NCBI GenBank assembly: GCA_013215385.1 | Contig: JABSOY010000021.1 | Coordinates: forward strand, 1-64,000 | Reading direction: 5' to 3' | Length of the DNA stretch: 64,000 nt | DNA from: Colwellia sp. | Lineage (GTDB): Bacteria > Pseudomonadota > Gammaproteobacteria > Enterobacterales > Alteromonadaceae | Shown here: positions 15,602-58,835 of the stretch, in pieces | How the letters are laid out: every line of letters starts with the position of its first letter | Numbering within the stretch: position 1 is the first letter of the stretch | Notes under the pieces: generated by a model | Told to the model about the DNA's origin: nothing | What the model saw: the letters and a program-made list of their open reading frames with translations, nothing else | Databases searched by the model: none | Position numbers and translations under genes: made by a program

Positions 15602-15627
15602 AAAGCCCTGATTTATCAGGGCTTTTA
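15602..15627 (+). terminator. Intrinsic terminator of the HDOD gene
   Basis: AAAGCCCTGA pairs with TCAGGGCTTT around TTTA, followed by T residues. The dispersed repeat begins in the tail (ATGTTCAGG from 15627). Confidence 0.88.
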
Positions 15628-15795
15628 TGTTCAGGATGAACGGTATCACGCGGTGGCATGGATGCCAATGAGCGAATATGTTCAGGATGAACGGTATCAC
15701 GCGGTGGCATGGATGCCAATGAGCGAATATGTTCAGGCCTTTCCCAGACATCCTGTCTTTCAAGGCATTAGTGCATCCATGCACGTCGATGAACG
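15627..15795. repeat. Dispersed modular repeat, copy 1 (two and a part 51-bp units plus module B)
   Basis: Two 51-bp units starting ATGTTCAGGATGAACGG (15627 and 15678) and the start of a third (15729) carry the palindrome TGGCATGGATGCCA. Module B follows, with CAGACATCCTGTCTTTCAAG and the palindrome GTGCATCCATGCAC (15771-15784), ending GTCGATGAAC. The frames it encodes are not genes. Confidence 0.85.
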
Positions 15796-15819
15796 ATAAG
15801 CTAAAATAACTAGGCTAGC

Positions 15820-17154
15820 TTATTTAGGTGCACTTAATCCTTTATTAATACTAATTAAGTCTTGTTCGCTAATGGTACCTGCCGCGCGCTTTAACGTTAA
15901 AATATTTTGCACATAAGCATATCGAGTAGAAGATAAGTTACGTTTTGCATTATATAAGTTACGCGTGCTATCTAAAACATCAACGATGGTACGTGTACCT
16001 ACTTCAAAGCCAGCTTCGGTTGCTTTTAATGCACTTTCGGCACTGACCACTGATTGTCCTAGTGCTTTTATAGCTGATACTGCAGCAATAACTGTGTTAT
16101 ATGCATTACGAGTATTACGAACCACATTGCGGTGTGTTTGCGCTAAATCTTGGCTTGCCGCAACATAATTACTTTGTGCCTGACGAACAGCACTAGATGT
16201 TGCACCACCAGAATAAATTGGAATCGTTAAAGTAATACCAATAGATTGGCTATCGCCTTCTATTGGTGACGTTGGAATTGGCAGAAGAGTTTCATTTTCA
16301 GATTTATTATAACGTCCGCTCAAATCGAGCGTAGGGTAGTGACCTGAAGTCGCTATATTGATATTTTCTTTTGCAATATCAACAGTTATTTTTTGCGCAA
16401 TTAAATCTAAGTTTTTCGCTTCAGCGGTTTGTTGCCATTCATTTGCACTGTCAGGAACTGGTCGAGAAGTACTAAAACGTTCAGTGTTTAACGTATGTAA
16501 ATTACGAGGGTAAACATTGGTAATTACTCGTAAAGCTTCTTCAGCAGTAAATACACTGTTTTCTGCACGAATCTCAGACGTTACCGCATTATCATACTGT
16601 GCTTGTGCTTCATGCACATCGGTAACCGCTGTTAAACCTACAGAATAACGTTGTTTGGTTTGTTCTAACTGACGTTCAATGGCTGCTTTTTCTGCTTTAG
16701 CGAAATCTAAGTCATCTTTTGCACTTAACACATCAAAATAAGCACCCGTTACTCGAACGATTAAATCTTGTTTTACGGATTGATAAGACACATCGCTACG
16801 GTGTGCTGACTTTTTTGCATTGTCTAAGCGTAACCAAGACGAATGATGGTAAAGCTGCATGCTAAAGCTAATCCCAACGGATGTACTTTCAGTTTTAGAA
16901 TCTTCTTGTGAGAAACCATCAACACCGCTTTCACTTTTAGTAAAACTTCCAGAAGCATTAAACTGTGGTAACAAAGTTGCTCTAGCTTGTATGATGTCTT
17001 CTTTCGATGCATTAAATAAAGCACGAGATTTTAATACTGCAGGATCGCTTGATTTTGCTTGATTGTAAACGCTTAATAAATCTTCAGCATTCGCTAAAGT
17101 GCTACTAGCTGCACAAACCAAACCGATGATCAGTGCCGAAATTGTTTTTTTCAT
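15820..17154 (-). CDS. tolC: TolC-family outer-membrane efflux channel
   Basis: 444 residues. A signal peptide (ending LANA-ED) precedes two repeated TolC/OEP halves, each with the long alpha-helical hairpins of the periplasmic tunnel (for example LTAVTDVHEAQAQYDNAVT and VGTRTIVDVLDSTRNLYNAK). TolC trimers connect inner-membrane pumps and type I secretion systems to the outside. Divergence from nudF-yqiB-cpdA-yqiA-parE is the same neighbourhood as in E. coli and Vibrio, which supports calling it tolC rather than a paralogue. It is somewhat shorter than E. coli TolC. No pump genes lie next to it. Confidence 0.92.
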   Translation of the reverse strand: MKKTISALIIGLVCAASSTLANAEDLLSVYNQAKSSDPAVLKSRALFNASKEDIIQARATLLPQFNASGSFTKSESGVDGFSQEDSKTESTSVGISFSMQLYHHSSWLRLDNAKKSAHRSDVSYQSVKQDLIVRVTGAYFDVLSAKDDLDFAKAEKAAIERQLEQTKQRYSVGLTAVTDVHEAQAQYDNAVTSEIRAENSVFTAEEALRVITNVYPRNLHTLNTERFSTSRPVPDSANEWQQTAEAKNLDLIAQKITVDIAKENINIATSGHYPTLDLSGRYNKSENETLLPIPTSPIEGDSQSIGITLTIPIYSGGATSSAVRQAQSNYVAASQDLAQTHRNVVRNTRNAYNTVIAAVSAIKALGQSVVSAESALKATEAGFEVGTRTIVDVLDSTRNLYNAKRNLSSTRYAYVQNILTLKRAAGTISEQDLISINKGLSAPK

Positions 17155-17331
17155 GAGTGAGTTATTCCTTTGAGTGTGCCAGGTACTATTCTATTATTAT
17201 GTTACTATCGTATCTTGATTTTCGAATTAGCTAAATATAAAAAGTGTTTGACAATGCATTCTAGTGTAACAAAATGTTTAATACTAGTACCTCATTTATT
17301 ATAGTCTCTTCATTTATTTAAAAAAATTATT

Positions 17332-17973
17332 ATGAATTCAGTAAATAAATCTACAAAATTATTACGCTTTTCTTTTGAAGACGTAATCATTCATCAAAAG
17401 AAAAACGCTTATCAAGGTTTTTTCAAAATGGATGAGTATCAACTTAGCCACCGTTTATTTAAAGGTGGAGAAAGCCAGATATTATCGCGAGAAGTTTTTG
17501 AACGCGGTCATGCTGTGGAACTTATTCCTTACGATGCAAAAAATGACCGAGTGGTTCTACTAGAGCAATTCCGCGTAGGTGCTATGGGGTACGGTGATTC
17601 ACCTTGGTTACTTGAGTTTGTTGCTGGTATGTTTGGGAAAAATGAATCTCCTATCGATGTTGCTATCCGCGAAGCAGAAGAAGAAGCGGGTTTAACGTTA
17701 AACGAAAAACAGATCGATAAAATAATGGAGTATTTCTCAAGTCCTGGCGGTATGAGTGAAGTTATGCATTTATACGTTGCTAATATTGACAGTGAAAATG
17801 TAAACGGTGTGCATGGCTTAGAATACGAAGGTGAAGATATTCTGTTACATGTTATGCAAAGAGAAGCTGCGTTATCACTATTAGAAAGTGGAAAAATCAC
17901 TAATGCCGCAACAATAATTGGTTTACAATGGTTGCAAAACAACTTTCAAAAACTACAACGAAAATGGCAATAG
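17332..17973 (+). CDS. nudF: ADP-ribose pyrophosphatase (Nudix hydrolase)
   Basis: 213 residues, soluble. The Nudix box is complete and fits G-x5-E-x7-REUxEExGU, beginning GMFGKNE and ending REAEEEAGL. NudF hydrolyses ADP-ribose to AMP and ribose-5-phosphate, removing a reactive sugar. It opens a tight co-directional run nudF-yqiB-cpdA-yqiA-parE, with only three bases to the next gene. The ATG at 17332 lacks a strong ribosome site, but the N-terminus aligns with the family (SFEDVIIHQKKNAYQGFFKMDEY region). Confidence 0.92.
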   Translation: MNSVNKSTKLLRFSFEDVIIHQKKNAYQGFFKMDEYQLSHRLFKGGESQILSREVFERGHAVELIPYDAKNDRVVLLEQFRVGAMGYGDSPWLLEFVAGMFGKNESPIDVAIREAEEEAGLTLNEKQIDKIMEYFSSPGGMSEVMHLYVANIDSENVNGVHGLEYEGEDILLHVMQREAALSLLESGKITNAATIIGLQWLQNNFQKLQRKWQ

Positions 17974-17976
17974 CAC

Positions 17977-18495
17977 ATGGTAATGCAAAGTAAGAAATAT
18001 CATCCTAGGATATCAACCTTGATGAACCTTTGTGAAGTCAACTATATGTTGCTAATTCGCTTACTTGCCAGTAATAACGATGCAGAAATAGTGGGAGACA
18101 AGCGCTGTTATTTTATTTCCGATTTTTTGTCTTATCAAACTGAAATATTAGAAGTTACCCGCTATACCAGCTTAGTGAGTATCTGCCAAACTTTGCCTTA
18201 TAGTAAAATAACATCAGAAAAAAGCATTCAGCAAACTGATAGTCCTATAGTCAATTTTTCTAGCGGTAAGTTTTCGACACTATTACGGCCTAAAATGGTT
18301 ATTCGCTTGTATCATGATGCGCGTATGGCAGAAGTGATTAGTAACCAAGATATCAGACAAGTTAAACCTCGTTACGATTATCCTAATTCTAAAATGCACT
18401 TACCTGATGAAAAACAACAAATTAATCAGTTTTTAAAAGAATGGTTACAACTTAGCCTTAAATTAGGGCAAGTACATATTTCACTTTTTGAGTAA
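17977..18495 (+). CDS. yqiB: DUF1249 / YqiB family protein
   Basis: 172 residues, soluble, in the position of yqiB between nudF and cpdA. Family-like features are the N-terminal LMNLCEVNYMLLIRLLA and later RLYHDARMAEVISNQ with the end KMHLPDEKQQINQFLKEWL. Its function is not established. The ATG at 17977 and one two codons later are both possible; ribosome sites are weak, which suits translational coupling with nudF. Confidence 0.85.
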   Translation: MVMQSKKYHPRISTLMNLCEVNYMLLIRLLASNNDAEIVGDKRCYFISDFLSYQTEILEVTRYTSLVSICQTLPYSKITSEKSIQQTDSPIVNFSSGKFSTLLRPKMVIRLYHDARMAEVISNQDIRQVKPRYDYPNSKMHLPDEKQQINQFLKEWLQLSLKLGQVHISLFE

Positions 18496-18501
18496 ACACT
18501 T

Positions 18502-19299
18502 TTGCCTTTAACTACCCATCCAGCTTTACCCGCTGAATTTACCATTGCACAAATAAGTGACTGTCATTTGTTTTCTAAAAAGGACGGTCTGCACTATGGT
18601 GCTAATGTTTATCAAAATTTAGTCAGTGTTTTACAAACTATTAAAACGCAATTTCAAGTTCAAGTAATCGTTTTTACCGGAGACATTACTCAAGATCATA
18701 GCGAAGTCTCGTATCAACGTTTCGTTCAAGCGGTTAGTGAATGTAAAATAACGACACCCTTTTATTATTTAGCGGGAAATCATGATGAACATGAATTACT
18801 TGATAAACACTTATCTGTAGCGCCATTCAACAAAAACAAAATTATTTCTGATGATTATTGGCAAATAACTTTACTTAATAGCAAGAGCGAAACCCCAAAA
18901 GGTTTTGTCGCAGCAAGTGAGTTGTTAGCCCTCGAAAATAACATTGATAACAGCAAGTATCAGCTCATTATGATGCATCATCATCCACTCGACGTCGGAT
19001 ATTTTATTGATAGACACGGGCTAGAGAACCAAAGACAGTTTTGGCAAACCATTGATAAGCAGCACACGGTTAAAGCTATTGCTTGTGGGCACGTACATCA
19101 AGCTATGACGATATACTCAAAATCGGGCACTAAAGGTATTCCTTTATATACTTGTCCGGCAACTTCTATTCAGTTCGACAAAAATAAAGACAGTGGAAGT
19201 TCAAACGGGCAAGGCGGAGGATTTAGAATTTTTTCTTTATATGCGAATGGTCAAATAGCTACAAACAGTCACTTTTTAGCAGAAAATATAAATGAGTAA
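18502..19299 (+). CDS. cpdA: 3',5'-cyclic-AMP phosphodiesterase
   Basis: 265 residues. The metallophosphoesterase motifs are all present: ISDCHLF, FTGDITQDHSE, AGNHDEHE, MMHHHPLDVG and ACGHVHQA, which bind two metals. CpdA breaks down cAMP and so tunes CRP-controlled genes. The start is TTG at 18502: yqiB ends in the same frame at 18493-18495, and no ATG precedes the conserved AQISDCHLF. A TTG start implies modest expression or coupling. It overlaps yqiA by eight bases. Confidence 0.9.
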   Translation: MPLTTHPALPAEFTIAQISDCHLFSKKDGLHYGANVYQNLVSVLQTIKTQFQVQVIVFTGDITQDHSEVSYQRFVQAVSECKITTPFYYLAGNHDEHELLDKHLSVAPFNKNKIISDDYWQITLLNSKSETPKGFVAASELLALENNIDNSKYQLIMMHHHPLDVGYFIDRHGLENQRQFWQTIDKQHTVKAIACGHVHQAMTIYSKSGTKGIPLYTCPATSIQFDKNKDSGSSNGQGGGFRIFSLYANGQIATNSHFLAENINE

Positions 19300-19885
19300 G
19301 CAAACTAAGCGTATTAATATTTTGTATTTACATGGCTTTAACTCATCACCTCAGTCAATAAAAACGCAGCAAACTAAAGCATATTTATCCAAAAACTTCC
19401 CCAATGTAAACTTTTATAGCCCACAATTGGCTTCATCTCCAGATGCGGTTATTAATCAACTTGAAAGTTTAATTGAAAACTCAAATCATGAAAACGAACA
19501 ATGGTTGTTTATGGGCTCATCATTAGGTGGTTATTTTTCGACGTATTTATCAGAAAAGTATCAAGGCAAAGCGGTATTAATTAACCCAGCGGTTAAACCT
19601 TATAACCTGATGTCAAATTACTTAGGCGAACAAACTAACCCTTATACCGGGGAGGTTTACCAAGTGGAACGACATTTTATTTCATCATTAAAAAGCATTG
19701 AGCAAGTAATTATTTCGAAAAATAATTACTTGGTCATGGTACAAACAGGTGACGAAGTGTTAGATTATCGGCAGGCTACAGAAAAATATAACAATTGCCA
19801 GTTAATTGTACAATGTGGCGGTGATCATAGCTTTATCGATTACTCAAAAATGTTACCTAAAATTGCGATGTTTTTTAATTTATAA
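19292..19885 (+). CDS. yqiA: YqiA-type esterase (alpha/beta hydrolase)
   Basis: 197 residues. Alpha/beta hydrolase signs are the N-terminal LYLHGFNSSPQS, the nucleophile elbow GSSLGGYFS (serine nucleophile), an Asp in QTGDEVLDY and a late His in CGGDHSFIDY, giving a full catalytic triad. YqiA of E. coli is an esterase with a preference for short acyl-CoA or ester substrates. It starts inside the end of cpdA (eight-base overlap) and is followed 36 bases later by parE, as in related genomes. Confidence 0.9.
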   Translation: MSKQTKRINILYLHGFNSSPQSIKTQQTKAYLSKNFPNVNFYSPQLASSPDAVINQLESLIENSNHENEQWLFMGSSLGGYFSTYLSEKYQGKAVLINPAVKPYNLMSNYLGEQTNPYTGEVYQVERHFISSLKSIEQVIISKNNYLVMVQTGDEVLDYRQATEKYNNCQLIVQCGGDHSFIDYSKMLPKIAMFFNL

Positions 19886-19921
19886 AACATTTTTCATCAT
19901 AATAATTATTAGAATAGTCAA

Positions 19922-21808
19922 ATGAGCGAACAATATAATTCAGACTCCATTGAAGTACTCAGTGGTTTAGACCCAGTACGTCATCGCCCAGGTATGTATA
20001 CCGATACATCTCGTCCAAATCATATCGGCCAAGAAGTTATCGATAACTCGGTAGATGAAGCCTTAGCCGGTCATGCTCAAAATATCACAGTAATTCTCGA
20101 TAAAGATCAATCGTTAGAAATTATTGATGACGGTCGAGGCATGCCAACAGATATACACGCTGAAGAAGGCGTTTCTGGTGTTGAACTTATTTTTTGTAAA
20201 TTACACGCAGGTGGTAAATTTTCCAATAAAAACTATCAGTTTTCTGGTGGTTTACATGGTGTTGGTATTTCAGTGGTTAATGCACTGTCTACACGTGTTG
20301 ACGTTGCTGTACGACGCGACGGTAAAGTCTATGAAATGGCTTTTGAAAATGGCTATAAAGTTGAAGAACTTGTTGAAACAGGTACGGTTGGACGACGCAA
20401 TACGGGTACTAGAGTAAAATTTTGGCCTGATCCTAAATATTTTGATTCCGCAAATTTTTCAGTACGACGTTTAATTCATTTATTAAAAGCCAAAGCAGTA
20501 TTATGTCCTGGTTTAACCATAAAATTTCATGATAAAAACGAAGATAAAAAATACCAATGGTACTTTGAAGACGGCTTGGTTGATTATCTAAAAGACTCGC
20601 TTAAAACTTGTATCTGTTTACCAGAAGAGCCTTTTGTCGGTACTTTTACTTCATCACATGAAACGGCTGACTGGGCGGTAACATGGTTACCTGAAGGCGG
20701 AGAAGGCATTGGTGAAAGTTACGTTAATTTAATTCCTACTATTCAAGGTGGTACGCACGTTAATGGTATGCGCCAGGGGTTATTAGAATCGATGCGTGAA
20801 TTTTGTGAGTTTAGGAACTTAATTCCACGTGGTGTTAAATTAACGCCCGATGATATTTGGGATAAATGTTCTTATATTTTGTCAATAAAAATGCAAGAAC
20901 CACAATTTGCAGGACAAACCAAAGAACGTTTATCGTCGCGTCAATGTGCAGCTTTTGTTACTGGCGTTGTTAAAGACTCATTTAGCTTATGGTTAAATGA
21001 ACACACTGAAATTGCCGAAAATCTGGCAGAATTTTGTATTTCAAATGCACAGCGTCGTTTACGTGCCAGCAAAAAAATAATACGTAAAAAAATCACTCAA
21101 GGCCCAGCATTACCGGGGAAATTAACCGATTGTGGTAGCCAAGATCTTAGTCGCACCGAATTGTTTTTAGTGGAAGGTGACTCGGCGGGCGGTAGTGCTA
21201 AACAAGCACGAGATCGTGAATTTCAGGCTATTATGCCTTTGCGTGGTAAAATTCTAAATACTTGGGAAGTCGATTCAGGACAAATACTTGCTTCACAAGA
21301 AGTACATGATATTTCTGTTGCCTTGGGTATTGACCCCGACTCTGATGATTTATCAGAATTACGTTACGGAAAAATATGTATTCTAGCGGATGCTGACTCT
21401 GATGGACTACATATCGCCACTTTATTGTGCGCTTTGTTTATGCAACATTTTTTACCGCTGGTACAGCAAGGGCATATTTATGTTGCTATGCCGCCTTTGT
21501 ATCGAATAGATATTGGTAAAGAAGTCTTTTACGCCTTGGATGAAGAAGAAAAAGACGGTGTGCTTGACCGTATTGAAGCCGAGAAAAAACGCGGTAAAGT
21601 CAATGTACAGCGCTTTAAAGGACTAGGTGAAATGAACCCGTTACAGTTACGTGAAACAACAATGGACCCTAATACTCGCCGTTTGGTGCAATTAACGGTA
21701 GATGAGCATTCTGAGACGATGGAGCTTATGGATATGTTACTTTCAAAAAAACGCAGCCCAGACAGAAAAACCTGGCTACAAAGTAAAGGCGATATGATCG
21801 GAATTTAA
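19922..21808 (+). CDS. parE: DNA topoisomerase IV subunit B
   Basis: 628 residues, the expected length. The GHKL ATPase domain is visible (EVIDNSVDEALAGHA, DDGRGMPTDIH, GGLHGVGISVVNALS), followed by the transducer and the TOPRIM region (LFLVEGDSAGGSAKQARDR and ILADADSDGLHIATLL). ParE and ParC decatenate daughter chromosomes. It differs from GyrB by lacking the extra insert. It closes the nudF-to-parE run and is followed by a UUCG-loop terminator. Confidence 0.97.
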   Translation: MSEQYNSDSIEVLSGLDPVRHRPGMYTDTSRPNHIGQEVIDNSVDEALAGHAQNITVILDKDQSLEIIDDGRGMPTDIHAEEGVSGVELIFCKLHAGGKFSNKNYQFSGGLHGVGISVVNALSTRVDVAVRRDGKVYEMAFENGYKVEELVETGTVGRRNTGTRVKFWPDPKYFDSANFSVRRLIHLLKAKAVLCPGLTIKFHDKNEDKKYQWYFEDGLVDYLKDSLKTCICLPEEPFVGTFTSSHETADWAVTWLPEGGEGIGESYVNLIPTIQGGTHVNGMRQGLLESMREFCEFRNLIPRGVKLTPDDIWDKCSYILSIKMQEPQFAGQTKERLSSRQCAAFVTGVVKDSFSLWLNEHTEIAENLAEFCISNAQRRLRASKKIIRKKITQGPALPGKLTDCGSQDLSRTELFLVEGDSAGGSAKQARDREFQAIMPLRGKILNTWEVDSGQILASQEVHDISVALGIDPDSDDLSELRYGKICILADADSDGLHIATLLCALFMQHFLPLVQQGHIYVAMPPLYRIDIGKEVFYALDEEEKDGVLDRIEAEKKRGKVNVQRFKGLGEMNPLQLRETTMDPNTRRLVQLTVDEHSETMELMDMLLSKKRSPDRKTWLQSKGDMIGI

Positions 21809-21848
21809 TTATATTTAAGTTGTTTTCATCAAAAATTAATATTTAAAG

Positions 21849-21873
21849 AGTATGGTTTCGACCATACTTTTTT
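21849..21873 (+). terminator. Intrinsic terminator of parE
   Basis: AGTATGGT pairs with ACCATACT around a TTCG tetraloop, followed by a T-run. The dispersed repeat starts directly after it (ATGTTCAGG from 21874). Confidence 0.9.
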
Positions 21874-22073
21874 ATGTTCAGGACGAACGGTATAACGCGC
21901 TGGCATGGATGCCAATGAGCGTATATGTTTAGGACGAACGGGAATGATTTTAGTTCCCACAAATCATAAGTACCTCCATCCATGGAGGCAATAACGCGGT
22001 GGCGGCCGATCTAAGGCATCCATGCCTTCACGGCATTTACACTTCCTTGTGTGTCATGCCAATGAACGTATAT
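21874..22073. repeat. Dispersed modular repeat, copy 2 (modules A, C and a variant end)
   Basis: It starts ATGTTCAGGACGAACGG right at the parE terminator T-run and contains a second diverged A unit. Module C follows (ACAAATCATAAGTACC and palindrome CCTCCATCCATGGAGG at 21973-21988), then palindrome AAGGCATCCATGCCTT (22013-22028) and an end resembling CCAATGAACGTATAT. The GAPDH frame extends back into it, but the true start is at 22101. Confidence 0.82.
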
Positions 22074-22100
22074 TTCCAGTATAAAAATTTAGGAACAGTA

Positions 22101-23126
22101 ATGACAATTAAAGTAGGCATTAACGGCTTTGGTCGTATGGGGCGTTTGGTTTTACGTGCAGCTTGGCAATGGCCAGAAATCGAATTTATCCAAATAAACG
22201 ATCCGGCGGGTAATGCTGAAACCTTGGCTCATTTACTTAATTTTGATTCCATTCATGGTCGCTGGACATTTAATGCACAGTTCGATAATGAAGAAATGGT
22301 AATACGTGATGAAAAGGGCGTTCACAAAATCGCGATGAGCCAAAACGCGTCTATCAGTGAAACAGACTGGTCAAAGTGTGACGTTGTAGTTGAAGCTTCC
22401 GGTGTTATGAAAACGACTAAACTATTAAACGCTTACCTTAAACAAGGGGTCAAACGTGTCATGGTCACTGCGCCCGTTAAAGAAGACGGTATTTTAAATA
22501 TCGTAATGGGCGTTAATCATCATTTGTATGAGAAAGATAAACATGCCATCGTTACTGCTGCGTCTTGTACCACTAACTGTTTAGCACCTGTGGTTAAAGT
22601 ATTGCAGGACAGTATTGGTATAAAACACGGTAGCATGACCACCATTCATGATATCACCAATACCCAAACAATCCTTGATGCACCTCATAAAGATTTACGT
22701 CGTGCTCGCGCTTGCGGGCAAAGTTTGATCCCGACAACAACAGGGTCTGCAACGGCTATCACCCATATATTTCCTGAACTAAAGGGTAAATTAAATGGTC
22801 ATGCAGTACGTGTTCCACTAGCGAATGCTTCTCTTACCGATTGTGTATTTGAGTTAAATCGCGGCGTAACCGTTGAAGAGATTAACCAGTTAATGGCAAC
22901 AGCGGCAGAAGGTGAGTTAAAAAATATTCTTGGTTACGAAGAAAGGCCTTTAGTGTCTGTCGATTATAAAACAGACCCTCGTTCATGCATTGTTGACGCG
23001 CTTTCAACCATGGTGGTGAATGATACGCAATTGAAGATGTATTTGTGGTATGACAACGAGTGGGGTTATGCAAATCGTGCTGCTGAATTAATGCTGTTAG
23101 TTGGGCGCTCTGATATTGCTAACTAA
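22101..23126 (+). CDS. ArsJ-associated glyceraldehyde-3-phosphate dehydrogenase
   Basis: 341 residues from the ATG at 22101, with AGGAA just upstream; the longer frame from 21999 lies in repeat DNA. The Rossmann start is [19 protein letters not shown]. The catalytic motif is [10 protein letters not shown], and the C-terminal [11 protein letters not shown] is also canonical. GAPDHs next to arsJ are known to use arsenate in place of phosphate, forming 1-arseno-3-phosphoglycerate for export. Here arsJ follows 101 bases later on the same strand. A role in central glycolysis cannot be excluded from sequence alone, but the context favours arsenic detoxification. Confidence 0.88.
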
Positions 23127-23227
23127 GTTTTTTACGGTTAATTAGCCATTTAGAACTCTATAGTGATGGCTAGTTATTCTTATGGGTTCGAATAAAACAA
23201 GCAAAAAATAAGTCTCGGTATATTCTC

Positions 23228-24466: not shown

Positions 24467-24500
24467 AGTATCCATAACTTAAAGCCTTAAAGTTATTTAA

Positions 24501-25664: not shown

Positions 25665-25708
25665 GAGCTGTCCGTCAGTGAAATTGGTTTGATATCTGCA
25701 ATTAAATA

Positions 25709-25724
25709 TGCATTTTTTATGCCT
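25709..25724 (-). promoter_or_regulatory. Candidate sigma-54 promoter for flgT
   Basis: Read on the minus strand it is AGGCATAAAAAATGCA, matching TGGCAC-N5-TTGCA at the essential GG and GC with correct spacing. It ends about 45 bases before the flgT start. In Vibrio such flagellar genes depend on the RpoN/FlrC cascade. Confidence 0.5.
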
Positions 25725-25755
25725 ATTTAATTTCATCTACAATGTAGCGTTGTTA

Positions 25756-25771
25756 TGGCGCGATTTATGCT
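25756..25771 (+). promoter_or_regulatory. Candidate sigma-54 promoter for flgO-flgP
   Basis: TGGCGCGATTTATGCT matches TGGCAC-N5-TTGCA at the GG and GC dinucleotides, which are ten bases apart as required. It lies about 85 bases before the flgO start. Confidence 0.5.
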
Positions 25772-25791
25772 TTGTTTCTGATAGATTATTG

Positions 25792-25810: not shown

Positions 25811-25856
25811 ATCACCAGACTAATATTCGCTGTAAAAGGCGGTTGAGGGGAACTCA

Positions 25857-39250: not shown

Positions 39251-39253
39251 TTA

Positions 39254-39306
39254 TATTCAGGATGAATGGTATAACGCGGTGGCATGGATGCCATTGAGCG
39301 TATATG
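39254..39306. repeat. Dispersed modular repeat, copy 3a (single A module)
   Basis: TATTCAGGATGAATGG begins four bases after the lysS stop, followed by the TGGCATGGATGCCA palindrome with one change and GAGCGTATATG. It sits before the terminator hairpin rather than after it, unlike most copies. Confidence 0.8.
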
Positions 39307-39320: not shown

Positions 39321-39356
39321 AAAAGCCGGATAAGTTAATCACTTATCCGGCTTTTA
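39321..39356 (+). terminator. Intrinsic terminator of lysS
   Basis: AAAAGCCGGATAAGT pairs perfectly with ACTTATCCGGCTTTT around TAATC. This is the strongest terminator in the window. The next repeat copy starts in its tail. Confidence 0.93.
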
Positions 39357-39515
39357 TGTTCAGGCTGAACGGCCATGATTTATGTTCTAGACAAATCATA
39401 AGTACCTACATCCATGTAGGCAATAACGTGATGCCATGGCAGTTCCTAGGTATCCATGCCTTTCTCAGACATCCTGTCTTTCAAGGCATTAGTGCATCCA
39501 TGCACGTCGATGAAC
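39355..39515. repeat. Dispersed modular repeat, copy 3b (modules A start, C and B)
   Basis: ATGTTCAGGCTGAACGG begins in the terminator tail. Module C follows (CAAATCATAAGTACC, palindrome CCTACATCCATGTAGG at 39405-39420), then module B (CAGACATCCTGTCTTTCAAG, palindrome GTGCATCCATGCAC) ending GTCGATGAAC at the next gene. The 288-base gap holds nothing else. Confidence 0.85.
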
Positions 39516-41090: not shown

Positions 41091-41639
41091 ATGGCGTTTG
41101 AAGTTAAATTTGAACTAACAGAATCAGACTTAGACCACTTCCGTGATGTGATGCGTAAAGCGCAATCAGGAGCTACAGAACTTAGCGAAGCAGTAATTTT
41201 AAGTAATGCTAAAAGTCTTAGTCAAGATATTAAAGGTAATGTACCTGAGTTTGTCAGTGAACGAATTCAAAAGCTAGAAACACTAGTTGCTATGATTGAA
41301 GATTCTGAGTGGAAAATTCCTGCTGAAGAACGTAGTGATGTATTAAGTGCTTTAGCTTACTTTAGTGACCCTGAAGATTTAGTACCAGACCATATTCCTG
41401 TATTAGGTTTTTTAGATGACGCAATTATGATTGAATTAGTTGCCGAAGAGCTAAAAGATGATATCGAAGCGTTTGAAGAGTTTTGTGCTTACCGTAGTCG
41501 CGAAGAAGAACGTACTGGTGATACAACCATTACCCGTGAAGAATGGTTAGACTCTAAACGTCGTGAACTTCATAGTCGTATGAGAAACCGTCGCTCCTCT
41601 CGTCGAAGCGGTCGTTCATCATTTCGCTCTGTTTTTTAA
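41091..41639 (+). CDS. YkvA / DUF1232 domain protein
   Basis: 182 residues. A helical N-terminal half is followed by the DUF1232 core (YFSDPEDLVPDHIPVLGFLDDA, about 100-125), normally described as a short membrane-associated helical domain. The C-terminus is very basic (SRMRNRRSSRRSGRSS), which suggests nucleic-acid or membrane contact. Function is unknown. AGGAG lies before the ATG. An intrinsic terminator follows. Confidence 0.82.
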   Translation: MAFEVKFELTESDLDHFRDVMRKAQSGATELSEAVILSNAKSLSQDIKGNVPEFVSERIQKLETLVAMIEDSEWKIPAEERSDVLSALAYFSDPEDLVPDHIPVLGFLDDAIMIELVAEELKDDIEAFEEFCAYRSREEERTGDTTITREEWLDSKRRELHSRMRNRRSSRRSGRSSFRSVF

Positions 41640-41665
41640 AAATCATTTAAAAAATTTCATGCAAT

Positions 41666-41701
41666 AAAAAAGCTTACTCATATTATGGGGAAGCTTTTTT
41701 T
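41666..41701 (+). terminator. Intrinsic terminator of the DUF1232 gene
   Basis: AAAAAGCTT pairs with AAGCTTTTT around a 15-base loop, followed by T residues. The dispersed repeat starts at its end. Confidence 0.8.
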
Positions 41702-42186
41702 ATGTTCAGGATGAACGGTATGTCATGATCACATGGATGTGAATGAATGACGATGTTCAGGATGAACGGTATGTCATGATCACATGGATGTGAATGACGA
41801 TGTTCAGGATGGCCTCTCTCAGACATCCTGTCTTTCAAGGCATTAGTGCATCCATGCACGTCAACGGTATGACATGATGCTGTGACTGCATGGATGCAGG
41901 AAGTAGAGTAACGCAGGAGCAGTTACCGAGATGGCAAGGAACGGCACATGTTCAGGACTGCAAGGAGTAGAGTACGCAGGAGCAGTTACCAAGATGGCAA
42001 CAAACGGCGCATGTTCACGACTGCAAGGAGTAGAGTACGCAGGAGCAGTTACCAAGATGGCAAGGAACGGTGCATGTTCACGACTGCATGGATGCAGAAG
42101 GTAGAGCGAAGCATGGATGCCCGAGCCGAGGATGGCCTTTCTCAGACATCCTGTCTTTCAAGGCATTAGTGCATCCATGCACGTCG
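41702..42186. repeat. Dispersed modular repeat, copy 4 (largest; A modules, B, 63-bp array, B)
   Basis: A modules start at 41702, about 41753 and 41799 (ATGTTCAGGATGAACGG or its opening), with palindrome TCACATGGATGTGA at 41729-41742. Module B follows (about 41819-41862), then a 63-bp tandem array, then a second module B (about 42143-42186). This 485-base block fills the gap; the frames across it are artefacts of repeat periodicity. Confidence 0.85.
41884..42088. repeat. 63-bp tandem array, three units
   Basis: GACTGCA recurs at 41884, 41956, 42019 and 42082: the last two spacings are exactly 63 bases and the first is 72 because of a short insert. Each unit carries GAGTACGCAGGAGCAGTTAC and an ATGTTCA segment, so it is built from the same repeat vocabulary. 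Units touch each other with no spacer. Confidence 0.88.
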
Positions 42187-42357
42187 TCAGTGAGTAACAA
42201 ATAACATAGTGACAAAGAAGCCAATCAAAATAGTATTAAAGGCAATAATATAAGCAAACCCCTTTACCCCATCTTTGACGCTACAGCCTTTTGCCTTTAG
42301 GTATCTCCACCAAAATATGCACATCAGTATTGGGAGTAAGTAAAATAATTTGATCAT
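42187..42357 (-). CDS. Small two-span membrane protein downstream of ampG
   Basis: 56 residues. The ATG at 42357 has GCAGG a few bases upstream. It encodes a hydrophobic start (MIKLFYLLPILMCIFWW), a short basic loop (RYLKAKGCSVKDG) and a second hydrophobic segment (FAYIIAFNTILIGFFVTML), so it is probably an inner-membrane hairpin. It lies 50 bases downstream of ampG on the same strand and could be co-transcribed. I recognise no family. Confidence 0.55.
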   Translation of the reverse strand: MIKLFYLLPILMCIFWWRYLKAKGCSVKDGVKGFAYIIAFNTILIGFFVTMLFVTH

Positions 42358-49732: not shown

Positions 49733-49749
49733 AAAGGAAGTTTTAAAAA

Positions 49750-50856: not shown

Positions 50857-51012
50857 GTTAAAACAGATCAAAAATGAGCAAAAGCCAACTGGTCGTACCT
50901 CATTTTTTGTAAAGCAGAGTAAACTATGCGGCAATTTTTGAATTTAAATCGAAGTAATTGCTGTTGCCAAGCCGTTTGGCGATTAAAGTAGTGTTAATTA
51001 AAAGGTCTTCTT

Positions 51013-52203: not shown

Positions 52204-52240
52204 CTTTTCAATATCACTCGAATTTAACGAGTGCTGAATT

Positions 52241-52270
52241 AAAAAAACCGACATTTACTGTCGGTTTTTT
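52241..52270 (+). terminator. Intrinsic terminator of fabV
   Basis: AAAAAACCGACA pairs with TGTCGGTTTTTT around TTTAC, 40 bases after the stop. A smaller inverted repeat (CACTCG...CGAGTG) precedes it. Confidence 0.9.
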
Positions 52271-52299
52271 GCATTTAAGACTAAAATAAACGCCATGTT

Positions 52300-52318
52300 G
52301 CGAATGATAATCAATTGC
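52300..52318. promoter_or_regulatory. Fur-box-like sequence upstream of nqrA
   Basis: GCGAATGATAATCAATTGC matches 14 of 19 positions of the classical Fur box GATAATGATAATCATTATC. It lies in the 500-base gap between fabV and nqrA, 386 bases before nqrA. The rest of the gap is AT-rich and shows no gene. The Fur role is an inference. Confidence 0.35.
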
Positions 52319-52703
52319 ATTTAAGTCTTTGTGCTAAAACAATATTTTGGTTAAAACTAAGTTATATATTTTAAATATCTTGCTTAATAAAATGTTTTTG
52401 TCGGATAAATGAGCTAAATCAAAAATTTTCAACTAAATTGTAATTTAAAGTAACAGAGAGCGTAGATAGCTTTAGAGCTTTTGTGCTAAAATCGCGCCAG
52501 AAATTTTAACTTAGTCCAGTGGGTCTTTTTCTTTCAATTAACATTTAATGTTAGTGATAAAGGTAAAGCAACTTACTGAAATACACTGAAATCGATAATT
52601 TGCTTTACCTAACGAGCCTTTCTAATAAGAAATTATTTTTTAGCTTGGTTAGGTAAGTAAATAATTGGTTTTGATACTCCCATCAAAAGTAGTGCATGTG
52701 TTT

Positions 52704-54041
52704 ATGATTACAATAAAAAAAGGTCTGGATGTTCCTGTCGTTGGTTCTCCCCAGCAAGTAATCCATGATGGCAACGCCATCAAAACCGTTGCAACATTAG
52801 GTGAAGAGTTTGTGGGTATGCGACCAACCATGTTTGTTAAAGTGGATGATCGTGTTAAAAAAGGTCAGGTTCTTTTTGAAGATAAAAAGAACCCAGGCGT
52901 TAAATTCACAGCTCATGCTGCCGGTGTTGTTAAAGAAATCAATCGTGGTGAAAAACGTGTTTTACAATCAGTCGTCATTTCAATTGACGGCGATGAGCAA
53001 GAAACGTTTACTTCATACACGGCTAATGAACTTAGCTCAATAAAACGTGAAGACGTTGTTAGTAACCTTGTTAATTCAGGCTTATGGACAGCATTACGTA
53101 CACGTCCATTTAGTAAAGTTCCAGCAATAGATGCTACACCAATCGCGATTTTTGTTAGTGCAATGGATACTAATCCTTTAGCGGCTAACCCTGAAGTGAT
53201 TATTAACGAACAAAGTGAAGCCTTTAAAAATGGTTTAACTGTTATCTCTCGTTTAACGAGTGGTGAAGTATTTGTTAGTAAAGCGCCTGGTGCAAACATT
53301 CCTGTTACAGCTAACGTGCAAGTTAACGAATTTGCCGGGAAACACCCTGCAGGTTTAGTTGGTACTCATATGCATTTCTTAAAGCCAGTTAGTGCTGATA
53401 AGTCTGCATGGAGCTTAGGTTATCAAGACGTTATTGCTTTTGGCCAATTATTTACTACTGGTGAGTTAAATAATACTCGTATTATTTCACTTGCAGGTCC
53501 TGCGGCTAAGAATCCACGTTTAGTGCGTACCCTGATAGGTGCCAATACAGACCAATTAACGGCTGGCGAAGCTGCTGACGGTGAATTACGTGTTGTATCT
53601 GGTTCTTTACTTTCAGGAGCCGGTTCTAAAGGTGTTCACGCCTATTTAGGTCGTTATCATGTACAAGTTTCGTTGATTCTAGAAGGTCGCGAAAAAGAAT
53701 TTATGGGTTATATGTACCCAGGTCCTAATAAATTCTCGGTAACACGTGCATATATGTCTCATTTCTTCCCGAAGAAATTATTCAATATGACCACAACAAC
53801 TAACGGTAGTCCTCGTGACATGGTGCCAATTGGTAACTTTGAACGCGTTATGCCATTAGATATTCTCCCAACAATGTTATTGCGTGATTTATGTGCCGGT
53901 GATACCGATGGCGCGCAGCAACTTGGTGCTTTAGAGCTTGACGAAGAAGACTTAGCCTTATGTACATTTGTTTGCCCAGGCAAAACAGATTACGGCGTTA
54001 TTCTTCGTAAATGCCTAACCACAATAGAGAAGGAAGGTTAG
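52704..54041 (+). CDS. nqrA: Na+-translocating NADH:quinone reductase subunit A
   Basis: 445 residues from the ATG at 52704 ([12 protein letters not shown], the family start); a TTG at 52665 is rejected. NqrA is the cytoplasmic subunit that may bind quinone. It shows [33 protein letters not shown] and the [12 protein letters not shown] end. The complex oxidises NADH, reduces ubiquinone and pumps sodium, a main route of energy supply in marine bacteria. It is first in the operon nqrABCDEF, with spacing or overlap of only a few bases for most junctions. Confidence 0.97.
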
Positions 54042-54043
54042 TC

Positions 54044-55261
54044 ATGGGCTTGAAAAAGTTTTTTGAAGATATAGAACCGCAATTTGAAAAAGGCGGCAAA
54101 CTAGAAACGTGGTACGCTTTATACGAAGCCGTAGCCACCGGGTTATTTACTCCAGGTCAAGTGAACAAAGGTCAAACTCACGTTCGCGATAGTATTGACT
54201 TAAAACGTATCATGATCACGGTATGGTTAGCTGTTTTCCCTGCCATGTTTTTTGGTATGTACAACATTGGTTTTCAAGCAACTGAAGCATTAGCTGCAGG
54301 TTATGCTTTACCCGATAGCTGGCAAGTAGGCTTGTTCGAATTCGTTGGTGGCAGTTTATCGGCTGAGTCCGGTTGGTTTAGCATGATGCTTTACGGTGCC
54401 ATGTTCTTCCTACCTATATACGCCGTTACCTTCGTGGTTGGTGGTTTTTGGGAAGTTTTATTTGCGACTGTGCGCAAACATGAAGTTAACGAAGGTTTCT
54501 TTGTTAGCTCAATTCTATTCGCTTTAATTCTGCCTGCGTCTATTCCTTTATGGCAAGTCGCTATCGGTATTACTTTTGGTATTGTTATTGCCAAAGAAGT
54601 ATTTGGTGGTACGGGTAAAAACTTCTTGAACCCTGCATTAGCAGGTCGTGCGTTTTTATTCTTCGCTTATCCTGGTGAAATTTCAGGTGATGCAGTATGG
54701 GTTGCCGTTGACGGTTTCTCAGGTGCAACAGCGTTAAGTGCTGCCGCTTCAGGTAACTTAGATTTTGCTGTAAATGGTTTAGCGATGAGTGAATCATGGT
54801 GGAATGCATTTTGGGGCTTTATTCCGGGTTCAGTAGGTGAAGTGTCAACCGCCGCTATTTTCCTTGGTGGGGCATACATTCTCTATAAAGGTATTGCTTC
54901 ATGGCGTATCGTTTTAGGTGTATTTGCCGGCATGGTTTTTACTGCATTGATGTTTAATAGTATTGGAAGTGATACTAACGCAATGTTTGCTATGCCTTGG
55001 TATTGGCATTTAGTTACCGGTGGTTTTGCTTTCGGTATGATGTTTATGGCAACAGACCCCGTTTCAGCTTCATTCACTAACACTGGTAAATACTGGTTTG
55101 GTGCATTGGTTGGTGTCATGGTTGTACTTGTACGTGTTGTTAACCCCGCATTCCCAGAAGGTATGATGTTAGCTATTTTATTCGCTAACTTATTTGCCCC
55201 TCTTTTCGACTATTTTGTCGTGCAAGGGAATATTAAACGGAGGCTTGCTCGCAATGTCTAG
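54044..55261 (+). CDS. nqrB: Na+-translocating NADH:quinone reductase subunit B
   Basis: 405 residues from the ATG at 54044, two bases after nqrA, with AGGAAGG overlapping the nqrA end. It is a membrane subunit with about ten helices. The covalent FMN site is Thr229 in SGATALSA; riboflavin and sodium binding also lie in this subunit. The start at 54011 inside nqrA is not supported. Confidence 0.97.
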
Positions 55262-56048
55262 TAATAAAGAAACTCCAATGAAAACAATTGGCTTTGTCTT
55301 TCTTGTTTGTTTAGTTTGTGCCGCCTTAGTATCTATTGCTGCTAGTGGTCTAAAACCTTTACAACAAGCTAATAAGCTACTTGATAAGCAAACTAAAATT
55401 CTTGAAGCCTCAGGCTTATTAGAGATTGCAGGTACTGACATTGTTAGTACTTATAATCAGTTTGTTGTTGCTAAAATGATCGACTTGGATACAGGAGAGA
55501 TTGTTACCGACGCTTCTGTTGAAGAGATTAATAGGTTTGACGAGCGTGCAGACTCTCGTAATCTTGCTAAAAGTTCAAAACCTAAGAATGACATTGCGGG
55601 TATTAACCGTCGTGCTAATCATGCGGTTGTTTACTTAGTTAACAATGAGCAAGGTCAATTAAATACCCTGGTTTTACCTATTGTTGGTTTAGGCTTATGG
55701 GATTTAATGTACGGGTTTGTTGGTTTAGAACCAGACCTAAATACTGTTCGTAGCGTTATTTATTCTGACTTAAAGGAAACTCCTGGTTTAGGCGCTGAAG
55801 TGCTTAATCCTAGGTGGAAATCTTTATGGCCAGGTAAGAAAATGTTCAATGATAAAGGCGAAACTGCTATTAAGGTGGTTAAAGGTGGTGCTAAAACTGG
55901 TGATGTTCACGGTGTTGATGCATTGTCTGGCGCTACATTAACCAGTAATGGCGTGCAACGTACTTTACATTTTTGGTTAGGTGATGAGGGCTATGGTCCA
56001 TTCATTACTAAATTCCGCAGTGTTGCTAGTGAAGGAGGATCGAACTAA
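55254..56048 (+). CDS. nqrC: Na+-translocating NADH:quinone reductase subunit C
   Basis: 264 residues from the ATG at 55254, overlapping nqrB by eight bases and preceded by GGAGG. One N-terminal membrane span is followed by a periplasmic FMN domain; the flavin is attached to Thr228 in [10 protein letters not shown]. Attachment needs ApbE, encoded downstream. A longer frame from 55194 is out of register with the family start. Confidence 0.97.
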
Positions 56049-56671
56049 TGTCTTCAGATACTAAAAAGGTACTATTTGGACCTGTTGTTGATAATAACCC
56101 TATCGCGCTGCAAGTACTGGGTGTTTGTTCTGCTTTAGCAGTAACAAGTTCAATGGCAAATGCTTTGGTTATGACCATCGCAGTTATGCTGGTAACAGGT
56201 TTTTCTAACTTGTTTATCTCACTTGTTCGTAATCATATACCATCAAGTGTGCGTATTATCGTACAAATGGCTATTATTGCCTCATTGGTAATTGTGGTTG
56301 ACCAAGTGTTAAAAGCATTCTCTTACCAGTTGTCGAAAGAACTTTCGGTTTTTATTGGTTTGATCATTACTAACTGTATTGTAATGGGCCGTGCAGAAGC
56401 TTTTGCAATGAAAGAAAAGCCAGGAGTCAGCTTTTTAGACGGTATTGGTAACGGATTAGGTTATGGTGCAGTCTTGATGGTTGTTGCTTTTTTCCGTGAA
56501 TTATTTGGTTTTGGTGAAATCTTCGGTATTGAAGTATTTAAATTAGTTCAAAACGGTGGTTGGTACCAAGGTAATGGCTTATTAGTCTTACCATTTAGTT
56601 CATTCTTCATTATTGGTTTAATCATCTGGGCTATTCGCCAGTGGAAACCAGAACAAGTAGAGAAGGATTAG
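56048..56671 (+). CDS. nqrD: Na+-translocating NADH:quinone reductase subunit D
   Basis: 207 residues, about six membrane segments. The family region [22 protein letters not shown] carries the conserved cysteine that, with one in NqrE, holds an intramembrane iron centre. It shares one base with nqrC (TAATG-type overlap). It resembles the RnfE subunit, but the operon content identifies NQR. Confidence 0.96.
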
Positions 56672-56675
56672 CCTC

Positions 56676-57299
56676 ATGGAACATTATTTAAGTATTTTTA
56701 TTAAAACCATATTTATAGAAAATATGGCCTTAAGCTTTTTCCTTGGTATGTGTACTTTCTTAGCCGTGTCTAAGAAAGTGAGCACAGCGATTGGTTTGGG
56801 TGTAGCGGTTGTTGTGGTATTAGGTTTAGCCGTACCTGCTAACCAAATTATCTATCAAGCAATTTTAGCGCCTGGTGCGTTAGATAGCATGATGGGTATT
56901 ACCGAGCAGAAAGACTCAATTGATTTGAGCTTTTTATCTTTTATTACCTTTATTGGTGTTATTGCCGCTTTAGTACAGATTTTGGAAATGATTTTAGATA
57001 AATATTTTCCTGTTTTGTATCAAGCCTTGGGTATATTCTTACCTTTAATCACCGTTAACTGTGCAATATTTGGTGCGGTATCTTTCATGGTAGCTAAAAA
57101 TTTAACCTTAGGTGAAAGTGTTGTTTACGGCATTGGCTCTGGTGTTGGTTGGATGCTTGCTATTGTACTGATGGCCGCTATACGTGAGAAAATGAAATAT
57201 TCTGACGTACCAGACGGTTTGAAAGGTTTAGGTATTACGTTTATCTCCGCTGGATTGATGGCTTTTGGCTTTCTTTCTTTTGGTGGTATTTCACTGTAG
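56676..57299 (+). CDS. nqrE: Na+-translocating NADH:quinone reductase subunit E
   Basis: 207 residues, about six membrane segments, inverted topology relative to Nqr[20 protein letters not shown] and [17 protein letters not shown] carry the conserved cysteines that share the iron centre with NqrD. It starts four bases after nqrD. Confidence 0.96.
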
Positions 57300-57373
57300 G
57301 CAAATGTCGGTCGAAGCTACTTATTACTATAAGTAATTTGAGTGTAGGCCCTAGATAATTTAAGGAAAAGTCG

Positions 57374-58597
57374 ATGGAAATAATTCTCGGCATATCGATG
57401 TTTACCGCGATAGTACTAGCGTTGGTTTTAGTGATTTTATTTGCTAAATCAAAATTAGTTTCTTCAGGTGACGTAACGATTAGTATAAATGGCGATCCGA
57501 AAAAATCAGTAGTAACTCCTGCTGGCGGCAAGCTTCTTGGTGCACTTGCGGATCAAGGGATTTTCATTCCTTCTGCTTGTGGTGGTGGTGGTACTTGTGG
57601 TCAATGTCGTGTTGATGTGCATTCAGGTGGTGGTGATATTCTTCCAACTGAAACCGGCCATATCACTAAGCGTGAAGCCAAAACAGGTTGTCGTTTAGCC
57701 TGTCAGGTTGCTGTTAAACAAGATATGGTAATTGAAGTAGAAGATGAAATCTTCGGTGTTCAACAATGGGAATGTGAAGTTATCTCTAACGATAACCAAG
57801 CAACATTCATTAAAGAACTTAAACTTCAAATTCCAAATGGCGAATCTGTACCGTTTAAAGCGGGTGGTTATATTCAAATTGAAGCGCCTGCGCATCATGT
57901 TAAATATAGCGACTTTGATATTGACGATCAGTATAAAGGCGATTGGAATCATTTTGGTTTCTTTGATGTTGAATCAAAAGTTGATGAGCCAACCTTACGT
58001 GCCTATTCAATGGCAAACTATCCAGAGGAAGCTGGCATTATTATGCTTAACGTGCGTATTGCTACGCCGCCTCCAGGACGTTTACATTTACCAGCAGGCA
58101 AAATGTCATCGTATATTTTCAGCCTTAAAGCAGGCGATAAAGTGACGATTTCTGGGCCGTTTGGTGAATTCTTCGCTAAAGAAACCGATGCAGAAATGGT
58201 CTTTATTGGTGGTGGAGCTGGCATGGCGCCAATGCGTTCACACTTATTTGATCAACTTAAACGTCTTAAGTCGAAACGCAAGATTAGCTTTTGGTATGGT
58301 GCCCGTTCTAAACGTGAAATGTTCTATGAAGATGATTATAACGGCTTAGCGGCTGAAAATGATAACTTCCAATGGCATGTTGCGCTTTCTGATCCACAGA
58401 AAGAAGATAACTGGGAAGGCATGACAGGTTTTATTCATAACGTACTTCACGAAAACTACTTGAAAGATCATGAAGCACCAGAAGATTGTGAGTACTATAT
58501 GTGTGGTCCTCCAATGATGAATGCAGCTGTGATTCATATGCTTAAAGATTTAGGCGTAGAAGACGAGAACATCATGCTTGACGACTTCGGCGGCTAG
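57374..58597 (+). CDS. nqrF: Na+-translocating NADH:quinone reductase subunit F
   Basis: 407 residues. An N-terminal membrane helix is followed by a 2Fe-2S ferredoxin domain with Cys69, Cys75, Cys78 and Cys110 ([12 protein letters not shown] and GCRLAC). Next come an FAD domain ([12 protein letters not shown]) and an NADH domain ([14 protein letters not shown]), ending LDDFGG. This subunit takes electrons from NADH. A 74-base gap from nqrE is the longest inside the operon. Confidence 0.97.
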
Positions 58598-58637
58598 CTT
58601 TTATTTTTAAGCTCAATTTACCCTTAATTTCATCGTT

Positions 58638-58674
58638 GGCTGTGCTCACTTACTATCGTAAGCTCCGCGCAGCC
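58638..58674. repeat. Long stem-loop after nqrF
   Basis: GGCTGTGC pairs with GCGCAGCC (one G-T pair), and inside it CTTAC pairs with GTAAG around TATC, with a small internal bulge. It lies 40 bases beyond the nqrF stop and may limit read-through or protect the operon mRNA. Confidence 0.55.
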
Positions 58675-58735
58675 GCCTTGAACTAAAGGAAAAATATGAA
58701 GCTTAAAAATTAAAAGCACATGAAATTGAATATGT

Positions 58736-58763
58736 AAAAGACGGCTTTGGTCGTCTTTTATTA
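58736..58763 (+). terminator. Intrinsic terminator between nqrF and apbE
   Basis: AAAAGACG pairs with CGTCTTTT around GCTTTGGT, followed by an AT-rich stretch. apbE therefore probably has its own promoter. Confidence 0.75.
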
Positions 58764-58781
58764 TTTATATAAGCAGTGTTT

Positions 58782-58835
58782 ATGTTCAGGATGAACGGTA
58801 TGTCAAGGCTCCATGGATGGGGATGAGTGACGATA
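58782..58835. repeat. Dispersed modular repeat, copy 5 (single A module)
   Basis: ATGTTCAGGATGAACGG begins about 20 bases after the terminator. The palindrome here is degraded (CTCCATGGATGGGG). An 11-bp direct repeat, TATTTATATAA, flanks it at 58762-58772 and 58839-58849 and might be a target duplication, although the sequence is AT-rich. Confidence 0.78.

Follow-up and report, generated by a model that had tools for sequence, protein, structure and literature searches.

RESULTS

Repeat arrays of the window

We analyzed a stretch of 64,000 nucleotides (nt) of Colwellia sp. (GenBank assembly GCA_013215385.1, contig JABSOY010000021.1), referred to here as the window, which belongs to contig 15 of G000, a genome of 5.10 Mb comprising 40 contigs. 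On its forward strand, five intergenic sites carry a small hairpin repeat, module A, singly or in arrays that also hold modules B, C, and D. At 15.6, 21.9, 39.36, and 41.7 kb, the 5′ end of an array lies in the T-tract of an intrinsic terminator, and the stems of these terminators differ in sequence. Both points had been made in an earlier note drawn from the letters of this DNA, whose five sites and coordinates are correct to within one base.

The first array lies behind the gene at 14707-15549. Its target terminator (15602-15626, stem plus T-tract) is followed by two A units in tandem (15627-15728), with hairpin 1 (GTTCA-GGA-TGAAC) and hairpin 2, and by a partial third A (15729-15795) that is limited to hairpin 1 and split at CAG^GATG by a 51-nt module B (15737-15787). 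Behind the gene at 19922-21808, the terminator at 21845-21873 leads into an A unit (21874-21924) and a second one (21925-22071) with two nested modules, C (21942-21990) following GAACGG and a D-type module (22004-22055) within the hairpin 2 loop, with boundaries set by eye. The third site follows lysS. One A unit (39253-39306) adjoins the lysS stop codon, with TT as its 5′ flank and no terminator ahead of it, and the lysS terminator (39321-39355) precedes an array at 39356-39515. This array contains hairpin 1 of A, C (39373-39422), the start of hairpin 2, and a truncated D (39439-39457) fused to B (39458-39508), again with boundaries set by eye.

At the fourth site, behind the gene at 41091-41639, the terminator (41667-41701) is followed by two A units that both have the TCACATGGATGTGA stem (41702-41799), a partial A (41800-41868) split at GGATG^AACGG by B (41812-41862), a GGA-rich module (41869-42134) in which a 63-nt unit occurs three times (41911-42099), and a second B (42135-42185). 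The last copy is a single A (58782-58835), also found in the related genome G118, within an AT-rich palindrome (TTTATTATTTATATAA / TTATATAAATAATAAA). By eye, its 5′ end lies 22 bases past a terminator-like stem with a T-tract (58736-58759), close to the distance of about 20 bases given before.

These copies are far more numerous than expected by chance. The pattern ATGTTCAGGATGAACGG, allowing up to three mismatches, has nine matches in the window versus a mean of 0.07 across 100 shuffles, and module B has four versus a mean of 0.01, the fourth being a copy at 42143 that the earlier note had missed. In G000 as a whole, TTCAGGNNGAAYGG has 35 matches versus none for a reversed-pattern control; three of the 35 (L001, L007, and L028) have no ATG and appear by eye to be coding.

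Most arrays begin at intrinsic terminators

Copies with at most two mismatches were grouped into 22 arrays in G000, and a strict terminator test required a strict stem and subsequent T-tract no more than 9 nt from the array start. By this test, the 5′ end of A lies at an intrinsic terminator in 17 of the 22 arrays. Among those that fail, L006 and L030 look by eye like terminators (larger loop, weak stem), and L013 has a first copy without a terminator and a second placed at that of lysS. Directly ahead of L017 and L002 there is none, L002 being located within a long structure behind sucD. The same test is passed by 2.3% of all intergenic positions of the window, by 33 of its 502 T-run ends (6.6%; P = 1.5e-16 against 17/22), and by 73 of 759 T-runs up to 150 nt behind a same-strand stop codon in the window and 19 stretches of relatives (P = 8e-14). 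The genome-wide search with the repeat patterns that had been proposed earlier therefore yields copies enriched at terminators, and not the absence of enrichment that had been named as the contrary outcome.

Poly-T alone was rejected as the target. Among arrays with T5 to T8 just before ATG, 107 of 115 lie at terminators, versus 128 of 811 intergenic control runs, so the preference is not merely for poly-T; in the 3′ regions behind genes, 50 of 188 control runs of this length are at terminators. The placement is also polar: a terminator adjoins the 5′ end in 33 of 49 single full units, and an other-strand terminator abutting the 3′ end occurs in none. TT directly precedes ATG in 166 of 180 arrays over all sets. 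The strict test is further passed by 54 of 69 additional arrays from loci of the family and, among the GTDB matches listed, by 62 of 92 distinct arrays; in listed records with titles other than Colwellia or Cognaticolwellia, 21 of 35 arrays lie at terminators by eye.

For 20 of the 22 arrays of G000, a reading frame on the same strand, 210 nt or longer, ends no more than 420 nt upstream. In 16 cases it ends 47 to 92 nt ahead; the distance is 2 nt for L013 and 163 to 291 nt for L006, L017, and L002, and L030 and L129 have no such frame. Opposite-strand frames overlap at nine of the 22 arrays; at L129, the opposite-strand frame is the sole one, and at the others it is the shorter of the two. Some copies stand behind REP-like hairpins (L300 and L342). 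Behind sucD, a long, structured-looking region with an A unit occurs in four genomes (L002, L035, L046, and L345); it seems to be an orthologous, old shared site and not an autonomous element.

Module A consists of two hairpins with constant loops

Module A measures about 52 nt and consists, in order, of hairpin 1 (NNNCA-GGA-TGNNN), a GGTAT linker, and the longer hairpin 2, in which about 5 pairs make up the outer stem, followed by a small internal loop and by an inner stem closing in CAT-GG-ATG. Its structure was examined on 35 dissimilar units out of 81, picked by their loop letters and not by their stems. The two hairpins account for pairing in 94.6% of all cells, versus at most 47% in slid versions of the structure. 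Cells changed on both sides number 98 versus 31 in shuffles, and the covariation score is 0.444 versus 0.130. G-U pairs are rare (10 of 355 standard hairpin 2 cells), which may reflect selection on DNA hairpins. Since hairpin 1 was fixed by the search pattern, we scanned for any hairpin with a 5-bp stem behind TTAT and found the loop GGA in 179. The arms GTACA, ATTCA, GATCA, and GTGCA occur with matching partners around this constant loop; by eye, the variants L075, L398, and L400 stand behind clear terminators, and L013 and L394 do not. Thus, the stems covary while the loops stay GGA.

The unit has two unlike hairpins in direct order, not an inverted doublet, and no terminal inverted repeats of the kind that mark a MITE were seen by eye in the alignment, its two ends being unlike. 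Hairpin 1 is preceded by AT, and no GTAG-type tetranucleotide accompanies it. TTTT occurs within 12 nt behind only one of the 49 single full units, so there is no duplication of the T-tract. Units are more alike within arrays than between them, which suggests that tandem copies form in place: similarity is 0.87 within (7 pairs) versus 0.67 between (164 pairs) for 13 arrays of G000, and 0.94 (51 pairs) versus 0.71 (510 pairs) for 11 arrays of the relatives G101 and G025. In L259 (6851-6887), a doubled hairpin 1 (ATGTTCAGGATGAACGGT twice, with one T between) follows a terminator; it could represent a second unit that went in behind hairpin 1 of the first.

B/D and C are mostly nested inside A

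B and D are one family of mostly 51 nt, composed of a long hairpin (GC...GC), ATTA, a second hairpin, and GTC. Among 39 distinct copies with a readable stem, 19 stand exactly at fixed points, namely, CAG^GATG (4), GGATG^AACGG (5), and CATG^GATG (10), with a junction placement that is ambiguous by one base. By eye, the hosts of these 19 copies are A (15), the loop of a C-type hairpin (3, in L277), and another sequence (1, in L019). The remaining 20 copies fell outside these classes, although several stand at close variants of these points. Module C, about 49 nt long, also has two hairpins with compensated stems; 23 of 40 copies stand behind AACGG(T) of A, 7 are joined to B/D, and 10 lie elsewhere.

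When nested in A, both B/D and C show TCC on the GGA strand of A. By eye, the inspected junctions of A, B/D, and C begin behind a T on the strand of the GGA loop. The arrays do vary in make-up, as described earlier for A, B, and C in different numbers, but the modules are not simply combined: for the most part, B and C interrupt A at fixed points, and an array is better viewed as a tandem of A units that hold nested B/D and C.

Many orthologous sites are empty or differently filled

At the 21.87-kb site, G118 has the same terminator without the element, and an ATG follows its T-tract. The 15.6-kb site is empty in G101 and G025, and at the orthologous lysS terminator, G118, G119, and G025 carry different arrays. 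Behind lysS, where G000 has its A array, G101 (L110/L111) and G025 (L118) carry long clusters of another repeat, CGAGATCCTGAAACAAGTTCAGGATGACG and its kin. Outside the window, the flanks of a single A unit (L027) align on both sides with G118 (L182), so the comparison of occupied and empty sites suggested previously has provided empty counterparts at all three of the 21.87-kb, 15.6-kb, and L027 sites.

A broader survey covered 12 of the 17 arrays of G000 outside the window in five relatives (60 cells, 5 of them without the locus); L002, L003, L029, L030, and L129 were excluded for a special context, a poorly conserved or short frame, or the lack of a same-strand frame. Automatic classification of the 55 orthologous cells gave 35 empty with a terminator, 15 occupied, and 5 in which the terminator was not found. 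By eye, three of the 15 occupied cells (L149, L150, and L170) contain another repeat, AAGTTCAGGATGACGG, and three of the 35 empty ones (L165, L188, and L192) hold an opposite-strand or decayed copy. Because orthologous terminators lack the element or carry different arrays, these comparisons indicate that A arrived by insertion. Insertion aimed at terminators, one of the two readings first offered for the placement, is well supported by the enrichment, its recurrence in other genera, the polarity, and the empty orthologous terminators.

Distribution

We used a genus set of 6 genomes and a family set of 118. A covariance model detected A-like units in at least 55 of the 118; as about 49 candidates were scored per genome, copy counts are lower bounds. 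An exact 18-mer was found in at least 114 stretches of the GTDB collection, versus about 7 expected by chance by our own arithmetic, and 80 of these were listed with titles. The genera among the matches listed are Colwellia, Cognaticolwellia, Thalassomonas, Psychrobium, Marinobacterium, Amphritea, Bermanella, Endozoicomonas, and Arenicella, together with metagenome-assembled genomes of Lysobacterales or Xanthomonadales; three further titles (a cyanobacterium, Saprospiraceae, and Bacteroidales) appear to be due to chance. The exact pattern TTTATGTTCAGGATGAACGG occurs in 4 of 369 genomes class-wide, and exact copies are therefore uncommon in that sample. Viral contigs gave nine stretches, from which four arrays passed grouping; none has a terminator, and one of the four (L370) resembles a real unit.

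Candidate mobilizing enzymes

In the 118 genomes, Pfam models detected the Y1 transposase family in 65, reverse transcriptase in 58, and IS110 in 72; G000 has four IS110 matches. Genomes with at least 10 covariance-model matches were considered copy-rich. A Y1/RAYT enzyme as the required mover was rejected (18 of 28 copy-rich versus 47 of 90 other genomes; P = 0.29), as were reverse transcriptase (16/28 versus 42/90; P = 0.39) and IS110 (17/28 versus 55/90; P = 1.0). One genome, G005, has 12 model matches to A and none of the three enzymes. No autonomous partner was recognized: the 25 largest clusters of open reading frames from 187 loci of limited length proved by eye to be housekeeping genes, deliberately fetched Y1 loci, or the repeat itself, and the longest member of a 14-locus cluster matches glycosyl hydrolase family 20. 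The A motif, with up to four mismatches, is absent from 17 of 18 Y1 loci of 3.5 to 6 kb each.

In genome G069 (contig 128, L232, 2300-3500), behind a sigma-factor-like frame, a RAYT-like Y1 gene of 151 amino acids lies amid its own GTAGGTCGAGG REPs. Some 340 bp upstream of the start codon of this gene lies an A inserted at a terminator. Of the five REPs, which are unrelated to A, three hold C in their loop and account for 3 of the 10 C copies that lie elsewhere, and two are without C.

Two other repeats were seen in the window, both within reading frames: direct repeats with 66- and 123-nt spacing (1152-1595, within a 1,465-amino-acid frame at 438-4835) and two 300-nt copies with 97% identity (12674-13309, within a 969-amino-acid frame at 10845-13754).

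DISCUSSION

We propose, with a probability of roughly 0.65, that module A is a non-autonomous mobile element of two hairpins, the 5′ end of which is joined 3′ of TT with a strong preference for terminator T-tracts, and which moves as folded single-stranded DNA by means of a nuclease provided in trans. This nuclease would read the GGA-loop hairpins, cut after T, and join the element to T-tracts that may be unpaired when RNA polymerase releases the transcript; tandem copies would form later, in place. Enzymes of the Y1/RAYT, group II intron reverse transcriptase, and IS110 types would not be required residents of the genome. Because it lies past the site of RNA release, the insert is expected to be nearly neutral. 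We infer the mechanism from the junctions: they have a single orientation, join the element 3′ of TT, and show no duplication that can be seen, and the hairpin loops are conserved. Such junctions are what single-strand HUH transposition leaves, as for the IS200/IS605 and RAYT enzymes (extracts of PMC8266576).

Several observations weigh against this proposal. Pfam models for Y1_Tnp and RVT_1 have no match in G000, the latter being absent from G025 and G069 as well. Across the 118 genomes, Y1, reverse transcriptase, and IS110 genes show no association with copy number, and no recurrent transposase gene stands beside the copies in the 187 loci, which are of limited length. The ATG left at the empty 21.87-kb site of G118 could also fit precise loss, and the distinction between gain and loss is a parsimony judgment made without a tree. 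The L027/L182 comparison shows no visible target duplication, although the right flanks differ over about 20 nt. The number of A pairs with both-sided change (8) is not above that of shuffles (7.1; 149 of 500). Upstream hairpins are not enriched ahead of the 38 arrays that have TT and no terminator (6 of 38 versus 8.7%; P = 0.11), and a general rule of "hairpin plus TT" is thus unsupported outside terminators. Finally, the GGA loops match CsrA-site motifs too.

The family is best compared with known small repeats and with elements that share its target. The comparison literature, taken in extracts, comprised PMC3049150, PMC4424553, PMC3116915, PMC8266576, PMC1525189, PMC1590033, and PMC7652899. 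Like A, group IIC introns insert at intrinsic terminators, and a smaller fraction of them inserts at attC sites (PMC4424553). Unlike A, with its 52 nt or so, they are ribozyme retroelements with a reverse transcriptase, and no intron ribozyme core was matched by Rfam in the window at the gathering score. REP, BIME, and REPIN sequences share with A short intergenic hairpins, compensated stems, conserved loops, tandem clusters, and a presumed single-strand mobility (PMC3116915 and PMC8266576), and A is likewise intergenic, repeated, and structure conserving. It differs from REPs and REPINs in having no GTAG guide, no inverted doublet of one REP, no Y1_Tnp in its own genome, and a targeting of terminators; the word "terminator" occurs 0 times in the main texts of these two papers.

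By description, the pneumococcal BOX, RUP, and SPRITE repeats are small like A, and BOX is modular with variable copy number, as are the A arrays, with modules in variable number and combination. SPRITE itself resembles a terminator, whereas the terminators to which A is joined belong to the host and differ in sequence. IS1397, ISKpn1, IS621, ISPpu9, and ISPpu10 insert into REP hairpins (PMC1525189), as B/D and C do into hairpins here, but these insertion sequences carry transposase genes, for which modules of about 50 nt have no room. By title, the nearest kinds among the papers listed are pneumococcal repeats, REP work, and group II introns. The earlier statement that no named family has these sequences held in Rfam (window, at the gathering score), in plasmid and phage records, and for five repeat strings in the papers searched, most subscription journals being outside that search, so that an earlier description is possible. 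We class the A family among small hairpin repeats resembling REP and BOX; its target is unusual, and no mover is known for it.

This likeness raises the question of whether A belongs to a classical REP/REPIN family moved by a RAYT since lost from G000, which we consider unlikely. The intergenic position, hairpins, compensated stems, and tandem clusters are as reported for REPINs (extracts of PMC3116915), and the RAYT-like gene of G069 has an A ahead of its start codon. However, the REPs on either side of that gene are its own and of the GTAG type, hairpin 1 has no GTAG guide, and both the Y1 loci without A (17 of 18) and the similar frequency of Y1 in copy-rich and other genomes (18/28 and 47/90) speak against a RAYT.

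A process without a dedicated enzyme, in which copies spread by replication template switching between hairpins, appears somewhat more doubtful still. It would account for G005, rich in model matches with none of the three enzyme families, and for the greater likeness of tandem units within arrays. Nevertheless, the repeated module ends, the fixed nesting points, and the polar TT junction exceed what slippage would be expected to leave.

The constancy of the GGA loops suggests a different explanation, that A units are mobile decoys for CsrA, transcribed by read-through and kept as sponges because they putatively bind this protein. In hairpin 1, CAGGAUG corresponds to the CAGGA(U/A/C)G element repeated in hairpin loops of CsrB, and the variant GUACAGGAUGUAC (L075) comes near the SELEX (systematic evolution of ligands by exponential enrichment) consensus RUACARGGAUGU, in which GGA lies in a hairpin loop (extracts of PMC7652899). 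Wherever a same-strand upstream frame can be read (20 of the 22 arrays), the GGA loops of A lie on the sense strand of that gene, and a permissive scan of 41650-42250 gave as its sole match CsrC at 41883-42016, which, at 14.7 bits against a gathering score of 61, places the CsrB/CsrC family below gathering. Yet nested B/D and C present TCC on the GGA strand, the stem of hairpin 2 is long, most SELEX hairpins having at most 4 contiguous pairs (same extracts), and G-U pairs are rare. Moreover, A should seldom be transcribed, since it stands behind a terminator. All of this makes the decoy explanation improbable.

Least probable is the second of the readings first offered, a functional partnership in which A, selected at its site, would back-stop or clean up transcription or trim or protect 3′ ends. 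It agrees with the precise placement at the expected RNA release point and with the conserved structure but was otherwise unsupported: the element begins past the expected end of transcription, one site can hold arrays of different make-up in different species, and the presence of the element is patchy, the many empty orthologous sites (35 of 55 cells, with a terminator) disfavoring a helper role.

We therefore return to A as a mobile element moved in trans. A wider proposal, possible but well short of probable, is that A, B/D, and C form a superfamily of gene-less modules of about 50 nt with GGA loops and, on the GGA strand, a junction behind T in common. One enzyme or host process might move them as folded single strands, landing at the RNA polymerase release site of terminators (A) or in each other's hairpins (B/D and C), which would constitute a new kind of bacterial mobile DNA.

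In the literature compared, terminator targeting by bacterial mobile DNA is described only for group IIC introns (extracts of PMC4424553). Here, a gene-less element of about 52 nt favors terminators in a comparable way across several gammaproteobacterial genera, and no reverse transcriptase was found in G000. The T-tract at the site of RNA release may be a landing site open to other elements. The many natural junctions available would help in working out target choice, and finding the enzyme is a clear problem to address. In these genomes, a hairpin that flanks a terminator may represent an insertion rather than a regulatory RNA, should the CsrA-decoy explanation not hold.

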